Shown in pieces: positions 16,160 to 53,599 of a stretch of 64,000 nucleotides of DNA. The stretch is from assembly GCA_023038255.1 (NCBI GenBank), contig CP082927.1, positions 206,436-270,435 on the forward strand, in the 5' to 3' direction. The notes under the pieces are model-generated. The model was not told the origin of the DNA, ran no database searches, and saw nothing but the letters and a program-made list of their open reading frames with translations. A program made the translations under genes and the position numbers. Positions within the stretch are counted from its first letter, which is position 1; each line of letters begins with the position of its first letter. The DNA comes from Candidatus Peribacteria bacterium (GTDB lineage: Bacteria > Patescibacteriota > Gracilibacteria > Peribacterales > Peribacteraceae).

Positions 16160-18316
16160 TCAGAGCCCAAGCTCGCCTGCAACACCTTTCATAGCCTCCA
16201 GTGTGATTCCGATAAATTCATCCAGCGGCATCGGGATGAGTGTTTCGCACGCACTGATCTGTTCACGGCTGACCTGCGCGGCAAAGGCCTTGTCCTTCAA
16301 CTTCTTCTTCACACTGCTGACTTCCACATCGGCAATCTGCTTGCTTGGGCGGACTTTGGTGACGGCAATGATGAATCCGGTGAGTTCATCCACACAGTAG
16401 AGACACTTTCGCAGCATAGTGCTGAGCGGATAGTCTTCGCCGTATTTGTCGGCATAGTGCGCGCGGATGTCTGCGAGCAGTTCAGCTGGCGCCTCAATAG
16501 TCGAGAGCAGGTGTTCCAACGTGTCACCACAGTGACGCGTATAGTCTTTATCAAGCTGGTCCCAGTCGAGGTCGTGGAGCATGCCTGCGACTTTCCATGT
16601 CTGTGCATCGCCGCCGAATTTTTTCGCGAGCGCTTCCATGGCAGCTCCGGTTGCAATCAGATGAGCCTTGGTCATGTCGGCATGTGTCTCAATCAGATTG
16701 CGTGCGGGTTCGAGGAGATGGCCGTAATCTGCATGTTGTAGAAGGTGGGATGACGAGGAAGACAAAGATGACGAGGAAGACGAGGAAGTAGCGGAATTTT
16801 CAGATTCGTTTTCATTCTTCGTACCCATTGTCATCTTCGTACTCTTCGTCTTCTTTTCTTCATCACTTTTCATCAGCGGGAACAACACCACATCCCTCAA
16901 ATTGGTCTGCTGTGTGAGAAGGGCAACAATACGGTCAATGCCCATGCCAAGTCCGGAACACGGCGGACAGCCGTATTCGAGCGCCGTCACATAATCATCA
17001 TCTTTACGGTGTGCATCAGCGTCTCCACCTGCGTTTGCTTTCGCCTGTTCCTCAAAGCGCTGCGCCTGATCTACCGGATCCACAAGTTCGCTGTAGGCAT
17101 TCACAATTTCCCATCCACCGACGACGAGCTGGAATCTGTCGGTGATATTCGGGTTCTCATCATTTCTGCGTGCAAGCGGGGAGAGATCAATCGGGTGCTG
17201 CATGATGAACGTCGGCTGCGTGAGCGACGGGCGGCTGACTTTCTTGTAGAGCTGGTCAATCAGGTTGCCACGACCAAGGGCCTCCATGTTCACCTCCAGC
17301 TTGATGCCTTTTGACTTTATGGCTTCCCTCAGGGCTGAAGCAGAATCACAGGTTTCAAAATCAATGCCGCATGACTGGAGGATGGCTTCACGGAGGGTGA
17401 GGCGCGGCCAGCCAGCCTTGAAGTCGACTTCCACCAGATTGCCGTCGCGATCGGGGATTTTTACTTTTGTTGTGCCAAGCAGATCCTTCAGAAGCGTGGA
17501 GAGCATCTTCTCCGTAAAATCCATGTTCGCAGTGTAGTCCCAATAGGACGCGTAGTGCTCCACCATCGTAAAGTCCTGGAGGTGACTGGGGTCCAGGCCT
17601 TCATTGCGGAAAATGCGTCCGAGTTCAAATACACGGTCAAACCCTCCAATGAGACATTCTTTCAGGAACGTTTCCGGGGCAATGCGCAGGAACATATCGC
17701 TGTCATACGCTGCATGATGTGTCTTGAATGGAGTGGCCAGTGCGCCGGATGCGGCATTCACCAGCACCGGTGTTTCGACTTCCGTAAATCCTTCGCTCCA
17801 GTAGAACTGACGCAGGGCACGCACAAAGTCCGAGCGGAACTTGAAACGGTTAAAGGTCTCAGGATTAGAAGTCAGATCAAGGTAGCGCTGTCTCCATGCC
17901 GTCTCCTGATCTGCAATACCGTGCCATTTTTCCGGTGGCTGACGCAGTGCTTTGCTGAGCATCGTCCAGGTTGCGACCATCACGCTCGGTTCGCCTTTCT
18001 GCGTCGCAAAGCGTTTGCCGGTCACGCCAATAATATCGCCGAGGTCCAGAAGCTCGAGGACTTCCTTATATGCATCAGCACCAAGTTCGTCCTCGCGGAG
18101 CATCAGCTGCAGACGTCCGGTGTGGTCCTGCAGCGTCACAAACGCCATCTTTCCCATATCGCGGAGCAGCATGACGCGGCCGCAGACAGTCACCAGTGTC
18201 TCTTCTTTTTCCTCCCGTGCATCAGCCAATGTGTGCGTACGCGCGAATGTTGCTGCATAGGGTTGCAGGCCTTTTGCGCGGATCGCGTCTGCCTTTTTCT
18301 GTCGGAAGGAATCCAT
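16160..18316 (-). CDS. lysS: class II lysyl-tRNA synthetase fused to an HD domain
   Basis: The first ~480 residues are a class II LysRS: motif 2 FRNEGLDPSHLQDF, then GGWEIVNAYSELVDP and motif 3 GLGMGIDRIVALL. They charge tRNA-Lys. A low-complexity linker (KMTMGTKNENESEN, then a Ser run, about 482-525) leads to a C-terminal HD domain (HLIATG...GMLHDLDWDQL...HCGD) of ~190 residues that is not part of normal LysRS. HD domains are often metal-dependent phosphohydrolases; the substrate is not known. The start at 18316 (MDSFRQKKADAIRAKG) is preferred over 18403 because it gives a normal LysRS N-terminus and has TACTCT 7 nt upstream. The whole is in one frame with no visible frameshift. Confidence 0.9.
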   Translation of the reverse strand: MDSFRQKKADAIRAKGLQPYAATFARTHTLADAREEKEETLVTVCGRVMLLRDMGKMAFVTLQDHTGRLQLMLREDELGADAYKEVLELLDLGDIIGVTGKRFATQKGEPSVMVATWTMLSKALRQPPEKWHGIADQETAWRQRYLDLTSNPETFNRFKFRSDFVRALRQFYWSEGFTEVETPVLVNAASGALATPFKTHHAAYDSDMFLRIAPETFLKECLIGGFDRVFELGRIFRNEGLDPSHLQDFTMVEHYASYWDYTANMDFTEKMLSTLLKDLLGTTKVKIPDRDGNLVEVDFKAGWPRLTLREAILQSCGIDFETCDSASALREAIKSKGIKLEVNMEALGRGNLIDQLYKKVSRPSLTQPTFIMQHPIDLSPLARRNDENPNITDRFQLVVGGWEIVNAYSELVDPVDQAQRFEEQAKANAGGDADAHRKDDDYVTALEYGCPPCSGLGMGIDRIVALLTQQTNLRDVVLFPLMKSDEEKKTKSTKMTMGTKNENESENSATSSSSSSSLSSSSSHLLQHADYGHLLEPARNLIETHADMTKAHLIATGAAMEALAKKFGGDAQTWKVAGMLHDLDWDQLDKDYTRHCGDTLEHLLSTIEAPAELLADIRAHYADKYGEDYPLSTMLRKCLYCVDELTGFIIAVTKVRPSKQIADVEVSSVKKKLKDKAFAAQVSREQISACETLIPMPLDEFIGITLEAMKGVAGELGL

Positions 18317-18323
18317 TGGGGAT

Positions 18324-18329
18324 AGAGTA
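18324..18329 (-). promoter_or_regulatory. -10 box TACTCT for lysS
   Basis: On the minus strand TACTCT ends 7 nt before the ATG at 18316, another near-leaderless arrangement. Confidence 0.4.
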
Positions 18330-18428
18330 ATGATTTTGCGCGAATAGGGGAAGGTCGAGATTGAGGTGTCCGACGGGGCCGATGTTGCCGAGGTATGACA
18401 CATTTTTGCCTCCGACCCGTAAAATCTC

Positions 18429-19302: not shown

Positions 19303-20745
19303 ATGGTCGCCTTCCGCTCCATAACCGGCTCGATTCTGGCTGCAGCACTTTTACTCAGTGCGTCACCTGCTTCTGCCATTACCTATATTTCCACCCGTAG
19401 CAATACGGAGAATGCTGTGTCCTACGTCCAGCGCGAAGGATTCATGAACGGCTACGACAATGGATCGTTCGGTGAGAGAAACGTCGTCAACCGCGCCGAA
19501 ATGGCGAAGGTGGTCACACTGATCGATAACGGCAATATCAACCGCTATAGCATGCGCTTGCCGTTCTACGATACCTCCAATACCGCCTGGTATACGCCTT
19601 ATGTCATCTACGTGTATGGCAACGGATTCATGAGCGGATACCCGGATAACAGCTTCCGTCCGGATCATTCCATTACTTTTGCAGAAGCCGCAAAAGTGCT
19701 CGCACTTGCCTATAACCTCGATGCACGCACCACCTCTGGTGAATGGTACCAGGAATCCGTCCGCGCTCTTGCGGACCGCAACGCAATCCCGACCAGCATT
19801 GATTACGTGGAACAGACCCTCACACGCGGCGAACTTGCGGAGATTGTCTACCGTTTGGACAGCAACAACCGCAGCCGTTCCTCCCGCTCATACGAAGATC
19901 TTGTCGGTTCCAGCCGGTACGATTCCTATAATCGCTACAACCGCTATAGAACAACAACCTGCAACGGAGATGATGTGCAGATTTCCATCGAGAGCGATTC
20001 CCGCGGCGTCGGCCCGGGCGATACGCTCCGCTACACCATTGAAGTTGAAAACTGTAACGACGATGACCAGCTGATCGACGTCACCGCAAATATCGACAGC
20101 CAGACGTCCTACCTGTCTTCCTCCCCGGAATCCAATTCCCGCTACACAGACCGTCTCGAATGGCGCAATCTCCGCATCCGCAGAGGAGACACTTACACGA
20201 TCACCCTGAGTGTTAGTGTCCGTTCGTTTGCAGGCGTGGATGACCGTATTGATCTGAGTGTCCGTGCAGAAGATGAAGACGGCGACGCGACAGGCTTCTC
20301 CAAGGCCATCTACCTGTCCGAGGACCAGAACTGCTGGCGCGATGCCCGTGGCGTCTACCGCTGCGACGATGATGATGACTGTTACTACTCCAATGGTCGC
20401 TACCACTGTGATGATTATGACAATGATGACGATTGCTACTACGACGCAAACAATCGTTACCGCTGCGATGACGATTATTACGATGATTACAACGATGATG
20501 ATGATTGTTACTACTCCAATGGTCGCTACCACTGTGATGATTATGACAATGATGACAACGACGATTGCTACTACGATGCAAACAATCATTACCGCTGTGA
20601 TGACGATTACTATGACGACTACAACGATGACGATAACGACTGTTACTACGATTCCAATGGTCGCTACCGCTGTGATGACGATTACTACGATGACTACAAT
20701 GATGATTGTTACTACGACTCCCGCAACAACTACATCTGTTACTAA
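19303..20745 (+). CDS. SLH-domain protein with DUF11-like domain and Asp/Cys/Tyr repeats
   Basis: A 480-residue protein with a signal peptide (residues 1-25), then three S-layer-homology segments (FMNGYDNGSFGERNVVNRAE, FMSGYPDNSFRPDHSITFAE, LTRGELAEIVYRL). A Ser/Arg/Tyr linker and a DUF11/CARDB-like beta domain follow (about 220-330: GPGDTLRYTIEVEN, RRGDTYTITLSVSV). The C-terminal ~130 residues are a highly acidic tandem repeat of DDCYY(S/D)NGRY(H/R)CDD units. The SLH part would bind the cell wall or its polymers. The acidic repeats could bind calcium and form disulfides or Tyr crosslinks (inference). A bidirectional terminator follows. Confidence 0.85.
   Translation: MVAFRSITGSILAAALLLSASPASAITYISTRSNTENAVSYVQREGFMNGYDNGSFGERNVVNRAEMAKVVTLIDNGNINRYSMRLPFYDTSNTAWYTPYVIYVYGNGFMSGYPDNSFRPDHSITFAEAAKVLALAYNLDARTTSGEWYQESVRALADRNAIPTSIDYVEQTLTRGELAEIVYRLDSNNRSRSSRSYEDLVGSSRYDSYNRYNRYRTTTCNGDDVQISIESDSRGVGPGDTLRYTIEVENCNDDDQLIDVTANIDSQTSYLSSSPESNSRYTDRLEWRNLRIRRGDTYTITLSVSVRSFAGVDDRIDLSVRAEDEDGDATGFSKAIYLSEDQNCWRDARGVYRCDDDDDCYYSNGRYHCDDYDNDDDCYYDANNRYRCDDDYYDDYNDDDDCYYSNGRYHCDDYDNDDNDDCYYDANNHYRCDDDYYDDYNDDDNDCYYDSNGRYRCDDDYYDDYNDDCYYDSRNNYICY
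20358..20742 (+). repeat. tandem repeat encoding DDCYY...GRYxCDD units
   Basis: Imperfect in-frame units rich in gatgatgac, tgttactac and ggtcgctac repeat to the end of the SLH gene. Two to three longer stretches are nearly identical (from 20385 and from 20511). Confidence 0.8.
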
Positions 20746-20762: not shown

Positions 20763-20800
20763 AAGAGGGCACCTGCGGATAGCAAGGGGCCCTCTTTTTC
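20763..20800. terminator. bidirectional intrinsic terminator
   Basis: AAGAGGGC (20763-20770) pairs with GCCCTCTT (20789-20796), followed by a T-run and preceded by an A-run. It serves the convergent SLH gene and the small membrane protein gene on the other strand. Confidence 0.8.
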
Positions 20801-20810
20801 TATCTGCTGA

Positions 20811-21212
20811 TTACGCAGCTGTCGCAGTTTTTGCTGCTTCTTTTACTTTCTCTACAGAGTCTGTGGTTTTCTTCTGCAGCTTCTTGGCACTGTGCTCCAC
20901 TTCTTTCTTGGCGCCGACCGCCTCATTGACCGCTGCTTTTGCATGCTTGCCTGCGCGGTAGAAACGCTTGCCAAGCTTCTTGCCGGTCTTGCTCATTTCT
21001 TCCGTGAGCCAGTTATGCACCGCTGCTTTCTTGATGGAACTTGCAACGTCCGCCGCATCTTTCTGTGCTTCTTCCTTCAGAAGTTCCAAAGCATCCTGTG
21101 CATTCTCTGCACTGAGCATTCTCTTTCGCAAAGTCGGACGGTTATACAGGTATGTCCCGACGGCACTGGCCGTCCCGAGTACGCCGATGGTGAGAGCTGT
21201 GCGCGCGCGCAT
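20811..21212 (-). CDS. small YtxH-like membrane-anchored helical protein
   Basis: A 133-residue protein starting at the ATG before MRARTALTIGVLGTASAVGT, a hydrophobic segment. The rest is a Lys/Ala/Glu-rich, strongly helical, charged tail. Size and layout resemble YtxH-family proteins, a loosely defined group of general-stress proteins. An upstream in-frame ATG (21275) would add 21 residues before the hydrophobic segment and is less likely. There is no recognisable enzymatic motif, so function is not assigned. Confidence 0.6.
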   Translation of the reverse strand: MRARTALTIGVLGTASAVGTYLYNRPTLRKRMLSAENAQDALELLKEEAQKDAADVASSIKKAAVHNWLTEEMSKTGKKLGKRFYRAGKHAKAAVNEAVGAKKEVEHSAKKLQKKTTDSVEKVKEAAKTATAA

Positions 21213-21402
21213 AGGAAGGTGGGGGAGGGGATGTATCATCTGTGACGCGCAGTCCGCATGATTCTTACAACTCATGAATCATCATGTATACAAAAAGTAT
21301 TCAAAGAGAAGAATATTGCTGTACCGCTACAGCTGTATTGTGGCTGCACAGAGAGGTAAAAATGAACAGGATAGTTTTCATACTCTGCAGATTCTCCTGC
21401 CG

Positions 21403-21430
21403 TTGACTCATTGCAGACTCGTTCTACAAT
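21403..21430 (+). promoter_or_regulatory. sigma70-type promoter TTGACT-16-TACAAT
   Basis: The -35 TTGACT (21403-21408) and -10 TACAAT (21425-21430) are 16 nt apart, which predicts a transcript start near 21437. It is one of the best two-box promoters in the window and is not followed by a convincing gene. A perfect GCTGTA-ccgc-TACAGC hairpin lies upstream at 21318-21333. Confidence 0.6.
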
Positions 21431-21436
21431 CTGCCT

Positions 21437-21909
21437 AACGCATTCCCCACCGGAATGCATCAGGTGATTTTTGGAAACATCGGACGTGAATACATAAATT
21501 GATCAATAGGTCGTAGCATCCTGTGGGCCACGGTTCCCAGAATGCTACGACTTCTGATCTAGACAGAAGAGACGGGCGCGTGAATGCCCATGTGGGCTGT
21601 TTCCCTCTTTTTTTGCGCCGCTGTACTGCGGGCAACACCAAAAGGAACTACGCGATGCAGAACTTGTACGACTCCTCACCCCCGAATTTCGCTGAAGAAT
21701 CCCACGAAGCAGGCCATCGAACCGCGAAGACGACCCCCGAGAGCGGCGGCAATCAAGCCAACTTGTTCTCCGTGATCTCGTAACCCGGGTGCCGAAACAT
21801 GATCAGAGCCCCTCCGTTCAAAAAGTTTATTGTACGATAACCACGTTCGATCCAACCAAATTACCGCTTTTCACCGCCAGCTCCTCTCCAGGGGTTGGCG
21901 GTATTTTTA
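21437..21909 (+). ncRNA. candidate structured non-coding RNA (family not recognised)
   Basis: A promoter at 21403-21430 and a strong intrinsic terminator ending at 21909 bracket about 470 nt without a convincing gene. The stretch holds several clear hairpins: GCATTCC/GGAATGC (21440-21458); a long stem GTCGTAGCAT/ATGCTACGAC (21510-21551) extended by CTG/CAG; CTTCT/AGAAG (21551-21569); GCCC/GGGC (21586-21597), which competes with another GGGC at 21574; and CCGC/GCGG (21618-21631). A T7 run at 21608 could make an internal terminator. It lacks the signatures of tmRNA, RNase P RNA and SRP RNA. An ORF of 42 codons (21655-21783) with AGGA upstream lies inside, so a leader plus small protein is an alternative. 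Confidence 0.45.
21873..21909 (+). terminator. intrinsic terminator at the end of the candidate ncRNA
   Basis: ACCGCCA (21873-21879) pairs with TGGCGGT (21896-21902), with additional inner CCT/AGG pairs, and is followed by ATTTTTAT. Confidence 0.8.
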
Positions 21910-21919
21910 TGTATGTCTG

Positions 21920-21925
21920 TATACT
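21920..21925 (+). promoter_or_regulatory. -10 box TATACT
   Basis: TATACT ends 6 nt before the ATG at 21932, giving a predicted leaderless mRNA immediately after the ncRNA terminator. Confidence 0.5.
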
Positions 21926-21931
21926 TCCCCC

Positions 21932-22243
21932 ATGTCCCTCCGCACCTTTTTCCGTCCCACCCCGTGGACGGTCTCTATCAGCATCGTTCTTACTCTTCTT
22001 GCAGCTGTTGTGCTCTACGTTACGCTCATCTGCGCCCTTAATGGGAGCAGCGGCTGTCAGACGCCGCTCGCGTTGCAGGTTTTCATGATCGTCGCTGTCT
22101 GGCCAACAGTCATCGTCTTTCGTTTGCTCAACGGGATTGTCGATAGTGGCCTCATCGGCATCATCGGTGTTGTGCTCTCAGGACTCTGGATCTATACAGT
22201 GGTCTGTGCGGTGCGGGCTCTTGCCCATCTGCGCCGTTCATGA
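21932..22243 (+). CDS. small hypothetical membrane protein
   Basis: A 103-residue protein with three hydrophobic segments (about 14-34, 48-66 and 70-95) and a short basic C-terminus. The start is the ATG 6 nt after TATACT; the longer in-frame ORF from 21830 would run through the terminator and is rejected. Its stop overlaps the start of the methyltransferase gene (ATGA), so the two are translationally coupled. The family is not recognised. Confidence 0.65.
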   Translation: MSLRTFFRPTPWTVSISIVLTLLAAVVLYVTLICALNGSSGCQTPLALQVFMIVAVWPTVIVFRLLNGIVDSGLIGIIGVVLSGLWIYTVVCAVRALAHLRRS

Positions 22244-52404: not shown

Positions 52405-53124
52405 TCAGATAGGGAGACTGTCGAGAATTTTCCGGAAGGCGGATGGATCGAGAGATGATGCTCCAACAAGTGCACCGTCGACATCCGGCAGTGAGAGGAT
52501 TGCACTGGCGTTCTCCGGCTTTACAGATCCTCCATATATAATACGGACGTTTTCATGACCTTGTTCTGACAAAAGTGCGCGGATGGCTGTATGCATTTCC
52601 TGAATGTCCTGTGGCTGCGCCGTCTGTCCGTTGCCGATTGCCCAGACGGGTTCGTAGGCGATCGTCAGAGATGAGAGATTGATCGATGACTGAAGAATGG
52701 CAGAGAGTTGTTTTTGAATCACGTCTGTGGCCTGTCCCATTTCACGCTCATCAGCTGTTTCTCCAATACAGAGAATAGGATGCAGCCCGGTCTGGATTGC
52801 CGCCTGCACCTGTGCGGCAATCATGCCGTCATGCTCTGCATGATGTATGCGTCGTTCCGAGTGACCGCAGAGCACGTACGTGCATCCGTGATTCGCGAGG
52901 AGTTGCATGCTGACATCGCCGGTCATAGCGCCTTTTTCTTCCGCTCTTCCATATTGTCCGCCCGTCACCAGGAAATGTTCGACGCACGTGTGGACATCCA
53001 GAAATGTCGGAAAGACAACAATGTCCACGCCGTCACGATTCCGGTATGGAGAATCCTCGGCATCCCAACCAGGCGGCGGGGCGTTCATTTTCCAGTTTGC
53101 GGCGATGAGGGGCGTTCTTTTCAT
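52405..53124 (-). CDS. tpiA: triosephosphate isomerase
   Basis: A 239-residue TIM with Asn/Lys (LIAANWKMN), catalytic His (VLCGHSERR), catalytic Glu (AYEPVWAIGNG) and phosphate loop (IIYGGSVKPENA, DGALVGASSL). It interconverts dihydroxyacetone phosphate and glyceraldehyde 3-phosphate. The ATG has TACACT 6 nt upstream on the minus strand. Confidence 0.96.
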   Translation of the reverse strand: MKRTPLIAANWKMNAPPPGWDAEDSPYRNRDGVDIVVFPTFLDVHTCVEHFLVTGGQYGRAEEKGAMTGDVSMQLLANHGCTYVLCGHSERRIHHAEHDGMIAAQVQAAIQTGLHPILCIGETADEREMGQATDVIQKQLSAILQSSINLSSLTIAYEPVWAIGNGQTAQPQDIQEMHTAIRALLSEQGHENVRIIYGGSVKPENASAILSLPDVDGALVGASSLDPSAFRKILDSLPI

Positions 53125-53130
53125 GTGGGG

Positions 53131-53146
53131 AGTGTAACCCTATACT
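53131..53146. promoter_or_regulatory. divergent pair of -10 boxes in the 28-bp tpiA-rpiB gap
   Basis: On the plus strand TATACT (53141-53146) ends 6 nt before the rpiB ATG. On the minus strand TACACT (53136-53131) ends 6 nt before the tpiA ATG. Both mRNAs would therefore be leaderless and the -35 regions lie in the opposite gene. Confidence 0.6.
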
Positions 53147-53152
53147 CCACTC

Positions 53153-53599
53153 ATGCAACTCCCCACCCGCGTCGTCCTGGCTGCAGATCATGCAGGCTTT
53201 CCTCTCAAAGAATCGGTAAAGACACATCTGCAATCCAAAGGGATTGACGTGATTGATGTAGGAACATTTTCTACGGAATCTGTCGACTATCCCGCTATCA
53301 TGCGAAAAGGAGCGGCTGCCGTCCTTGAATACAGCTGTCCGGGTATTATTTTCGGCGGCAGCGGCAACGGTGAAGCGATGGCAGCGAACAAGGTGCGGGG
53401 CATCCGTGCGGCGGTCTGTTACAGCGTAGAAATCGCCCGTTTGGCCCGGGCTCATAATGATGCAAACGTGATGAGCCTGGGAGCCAGATTCACCGATAGC
53501 GCCCTTGCACATGCGATGGTTGACGTTTTCCTGGAAACAGACTTCGAAGGGGGCCGTCACATCGCACGCATTGCCGATCTCGATACCCCCCTCGCATGA
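53153..53599 (+). CDS. rpiB: ribose-5-phosphate isomerase B
   Basis: A 148-residue RpiB/LacAB-family protein (VLAADHAGFPLKESVKTHLQ, IIFGGSGNGEAMAANKVRGI, AHNDANVMSLGAR). It interconverts ribose 5-phosphate and ribulose 5-phosphate. In the usual active site CGTGxG a Cys is present; here the loop is FGGSGNG, so the Cys is replaced by Gly. Coupled to rpe by ATGA overlap. Confidence 0.9.
   Translation: MQLPTRVVLAADHAGFPLKESVKTHLQSKGIDVIDVGTFSTESVDYPAIMRKGAAAVLEYSCPGIIFGGSGNGEAMAANKVRGIRAAVCYSVEIARLARAHNDANVMSLGARFTDSALAHAMVDVFLETDFEGGRHIARIADLDTPLA

Follow-up and report, generated by a model that had tools for sequence, protein, structure and literature searches.

A candidate species-restricted small RNA gene in an intergenic region of a Candidatus Peribacteria genome

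The intergenic region at 21403-21909 of the 64-kb window (the whole stretch of DNA analysed, C1:206436-270435 of a single-contig genome of 1,239,242 bases) is best read as a species-restricted small non-coding RNA gene, with a probability of roughly 45%. We place this reading ahead of an intergenic spacer, a small mRNA with a structured leader and a leader of the downstream gene. It is supported by the strength of the closing terminator (T2), a fold with z = -3.2, the weakness of the open reading frames (ORFs) and the lack of a match in Rfam; it is opposed by the lack of homologues, by promoter and 10-bp-stem matches at chance rates and by the imperfect spacing of an internal terminator-like element (T1). 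Tentatively, the locus may represent an undescribed small RNA gene or an attenuator-controlled small gene of one Peribacteraceae lineage, in a group for which hardly any regulatory RNAs have been described; a full-text literature search pairing CPR with small RNA and riboswitch returned no paper in the collection searched. Should the locus be transcribed, Patescibacteria (CPR) would gain a candidate regulatory RNA, though one of modest weight, given its restriction to a single known genome and its putative function.

Predicted transcript, folding and terminators

The proposed mechanism begins with RNA polymerase, which would use the promoter at 21403-21430 to start near 21437 and make a chain composed of hairpin 1, an A/U-rich linker, hairpin 2 and T1. 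Most transcripts would end at the U7 tract of T1, yielding an RNA of about 178 nt, and those passing T1 would end at T2. The RNA would be shielded by the hairpins at both of its ends and by the stable hairpin 2, and would pair with target RNAs through the open linker (21459-21500). We infer transcription, termination at T1 and RNA stability from these elements; target pairing by the linker is purely conjectural.

The promoter-like site, a sigma-70-type TTGACT-16-TACAAT on the + strand, is present where the first-pass annotation had placed it and agrees with the consensus at 10 of 12 positions, which would set the transcript start near 21437. It is the only match in 2.5 kb, where shuffled sequences give 2.7, and sigma-70-like matches, in this region as elsewhere, are no commoner than in shuffles. 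The match is good but appears to occur at chance frequency, and taken alone it is weak evidence.

Hairpin 1 (21440-21458, +) is a 7-bp stem, GCATTCC/GGAATGC, with pair probabilities of about 0.99. The A/U-rich linker that follows (21459-21500, +) is mostly unpaired in the 178-nt form, its mean unpaired probability being 0.64 in 21437-21614 versus 0.39 in the 473-nt form. Hairpin 2 (21501-21559, +) is a long interrupted stem of -30.6 kcal/mol, lower in folding energy than any other 61-nt stretch of the window's + strand, and it encloses the perfect 10-bp stem (21510-21519/21542-21551, +) that had been described within 21510-21551 and that we recover as part of this larger hairpin. Whole-window shuffles yield equally stable 61-mers at two to five loci per 64 kb, and the chance expectation for perfect stems of at least 10 bp is likewise 2-5 per 64 kb. 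Considered as a whole, 21437-21617 folds at -61.4 kcal/mol with z = -3.2, a value equalled by only about 1% of the 426 sampled windows that form the window-wide background, and 21437-21909 reaches z = -4.35. The predicted folding of 21437-21617 is therefore best described as moderately unusual, and structure here is suggestive rather than decisive.

These chance rates bear on a first alternative, namely an ordinary fast-changing intergenic spacer in which promoter and folds arise by chance, T2 merely shields the downstream gene against stray transcription and the locus yields no functional RNA. Promoter matches and 10-bp stems at chance frequency, the two to five equally stable 61-mers per 64 kb of shuffled DNA and the absence of conservation in 353 genomes of the class all fit it. 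It does not account as readily for the co-occurrence, in the proper order and within ~500 gene-free bases, of a promoter site, a fold with z of -3.2 and the strand's strongest terminator, and we regard it as unlikely, if the most serious competitor of the small RNA gene.

T1, a terminator-like hairpin with a U7 tract (21569-21614, +), had been overlooked in the first-pass annotation. Its hairpin (21569-21603; 13 bp, -14.8 kcal/mol) is followed by a CC spacer and then by TCTTTTTTT, and the U tract lies 2-4 nt past the stem, which is less than ideal. The mutually exclusive GGGC/GCCC pairings reported earlier lie in this element: GGGC at 21574-21577 and GGGC at 21594-21597 are rival 4-bp partners of GCCC at 21586-21589. 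A further alternative, the long-range stem 21473-21479/21598-21604, leads to a fold 3.3 kcal/mol less stable and has a pair probability of 0.002 or less; a two-state switch at T1 is therefore not well supported by the folding models.

T2 (21873-21909, +) is an intrinsic terminator with a 13-pair stem, a tetraloop and an ATTTTTA tail. At -22.8 kcal/mol it is the strongest terminator-like hairpin on the + strand of the 64-kb window, confirming that a strong terminator closes the region, and its hairpin dominates the ensemble with pair probabilities of about 1.0. Terminator-like sites at -10 kcal/mol or better number 11 and 13 on the two strands, against 1-6 per strand in shuffles, an excess indicating from sequence that terminators are in real use in the window.

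The region had been proposed as a single unit of ~470 nt. Its promoter-like and terminator ends hold, whereas one extent for the whole is doubtful given the internal T1. The presence of T1 points instead to a natural short product: the predicted unit would be an RNA of ~178 nt (21437-21614), for which T2 would provide a second stop, and the stretch 21615-21872 would be set apart from it.

Coding potential of the region and organization of its neighbours

That the region holds no convincing gene, as first reported, is supported by the weakness of its best candidate, a doubtful 42-codon ORF (21655-21783, +) absent from the earlier description. Its codon score of 0.09 lies at the 7th percentile of real genes and is equalled by 27% of wrong frames, the peptide returned no homologue in the homologue search and no Pfam match was obtained. 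The ORF nevertheless underlies a second alternative, in which the locus is a small mRNA for the 42-aa protein with a structured leader and T1 as attenuator, and in which pairing between the U tract and AAAAGG on read-through covers the start. Consistent with this, AAGGA lies 8 nt upstream of the ATG, among the three frames the codon score is highest in frame 0, the fold of 21437-21660 does pair the T1 U tract with AAAAGG, and the ORF is flanked by T1 before it and T2 after it. The codon statistics and the empty homologue and Pfam searches weigh against it, as does the rarity of Shine-Dalgarno (SD) sequences among genes of the window, where a match of at least five bases precedes one of 32 + strand gene starts. 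Also against it, the 16S rRNA, found with RF00177 and with its 3' end near C1 position 1202141, ends in ...GGAACATCTCCTTACC, and its altered anti-SD region reads CATCTCCTT versus the usual CACCTCCTT. Candidatus P. riflensis has been listed as SD-scarce and without a conserved CCUCC (PMC10783764). On balance we judge the small mRNA improbable.

The small RNA gene draws its main argument from the position of T2 among the surrounding genes. Upstream, an SLH-domain gene (+) ends at 20745 and has its own terminator-like site, legible on both strands (20765-20803), and the next gene (20811-21275), between it and the candidate RNA, lies on the - strand; T2 would serve neither of them, and no convincing + strand gene is found from 20745 to T2. 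Downstream, a 103-aa ORF for a membrane protein (ATG at 21932, +) directly follows T2, with a methyltransferase gene (22240) beyond it. The membrane-protein gene is preceded by a TATACT -10-like box (21920-21925, +) six nucleotides before its ATG. The same TANNNT-6-start layout is found at six of ~43 gene starts in the window, compared with 0.6% of all ATG/GTG, examples being the starts at 568, 11279, 21932 and 53153 and, on the - strand, at 53124 and 23931. Leaderless starts therefore seem common in the window, and both the layout and its frequency suggest that the gene at 21932 is probably transcribed from a leaderless promoter of its own. This would leave T2 without a gene to serve, and a strong terminator in such a position leads us to expect a transcript from the region itself.

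In a third alternative, the region would form a long, attenuator-bearing 5' leader of the two downstream genes, those for the membrane protein (21932) and the methyltransferase (22240), and T2 would act as the switch. T2 does lie directly upstream of the 103-aa ORF, about 23 nt before its ATG, and the segment 21858-21867 is able to pair with the 3' arm and tail of T2 (21898-21907). However, the TATACT box points to a separate leaderless start in a layout common here, the T2 hairpin is dominant in the ensemble and riboswitch families are without a match, so we consider this arrangement very improbable.

Several features of the surrounding sequence were recorded in passing. At 20210-20745, the SLH-domain gene closes with Asp/Tyr/Cys-rich repeats built of CDDDYYDDYNDD units. 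At 53124-53153, two divergent genes apparently have a short region in common, in which their leaderless -10 boxes stand back to back (TACACT on the - strand, TATACT on the + strand). At 16160-18403 (-), a lysyl-tRNA synthetase-like ORF is joined in one frame, as judged by eye only, to a Ser-rich linker and a C-terminal HD-type-like stretch.

Distribution across genomes and comparison with known RNA families

Searches with the DNA of the candidate small RNA gene found no homologue in relatives, in the family or in 353 genomes of the class, and none in phage and plasmid records; the exact stem was absent from the genome and viral contigs scanned. A covariance model built from this single sequence found no homologue in 74 family genomes, a search of limited reach in which, with the stricter filters used family-wide, diverged homologues could be missed. 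One match to the model (E 0.36) lay inside a leucyl-tRNA synthetase-like gene, named by eye, and was taken as chance. Weak blastn matches at about 21690-21760 fell in ordinary coding sequence in the two relatives' genomes that were read and are chance-like. The locus comparison among relatives suggested in the first-pass annotation thus yielded no homologue, and its notion of a new structured RNA, understood as a conserved family, is not supported across the 353 class and 74 family genomes; of the two observations that the annotation named jointly as refuting it, a lack of conservation is seen in these genomes. With no homologue anywhere searched, nothing points to selection on the fold.

The genomes compared include no other species of the genus to which the window belongs, and the neighbouring genes offer little anchorage. 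For the 103-aa ORF, searches of the 74 family genomes and of the genome contigs found no homologue, and the methyltransferase has only distant ones, in three family genomes, which is why no matching locus could be aligned. Since this neighbour also lacks a family homologue, the stretch as a whole looks lineage-specific.

Comparison with known families gave a consistent picture. At the gathering threshold, the sole match of Rfam 15 across the window was a tRNA, and the locus itself had none, so the covariance search that had been suggested assigns it to no known family; a permissive scan of 21250-22000 returned only unrelated matches far under the cut-offs, and no riboswitch family matched the locus in either scan. 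The earlier statement that the locus lacks the landmarks of tmRNA, RNase P RNA and SRP RNA is borne out. The tmRNA model (RF00023) has no match here and identifies the tmRNA of the genome elsewhere (G000:C1:366106-366519, 83.9 bits), and neither the RNase P RNA nor the SRP RNA model matches at the locus.

Among known systems, the candidate resembles intergenic small RNAs of bacteria in its own promoter-like site, several hairpins, intrinsic terminator, lack of a convincing ORF and the size of its short form (about 178 nt), but differs in having no homologue, in its Patescibacteria (CPR) host and in being known from sequence alone. With attenuators and riboswitch leaders it has in common a terminator-like hairpin (T1) that precedes an ORF and has alternative pairings, whereas no riboswitch family matches it, its alternative long-range pairing has a probability of at most 0.002 and the ORF is doubtful. 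Its ~178-nt form is also similar to 6S RNA in length (about 180 nt) and in its stable hairpin, yet differs in lacking an Rfam match: the 6S model (RF00013) has no match at the locus, and the genome's only 6S-like match lies elsewhere (G000:C1:141287-141440, 35.7 bits). This 6S-like sequence falls under the Rfam gathering score and is a candidate for a diverged 6S RNA of this lineage.
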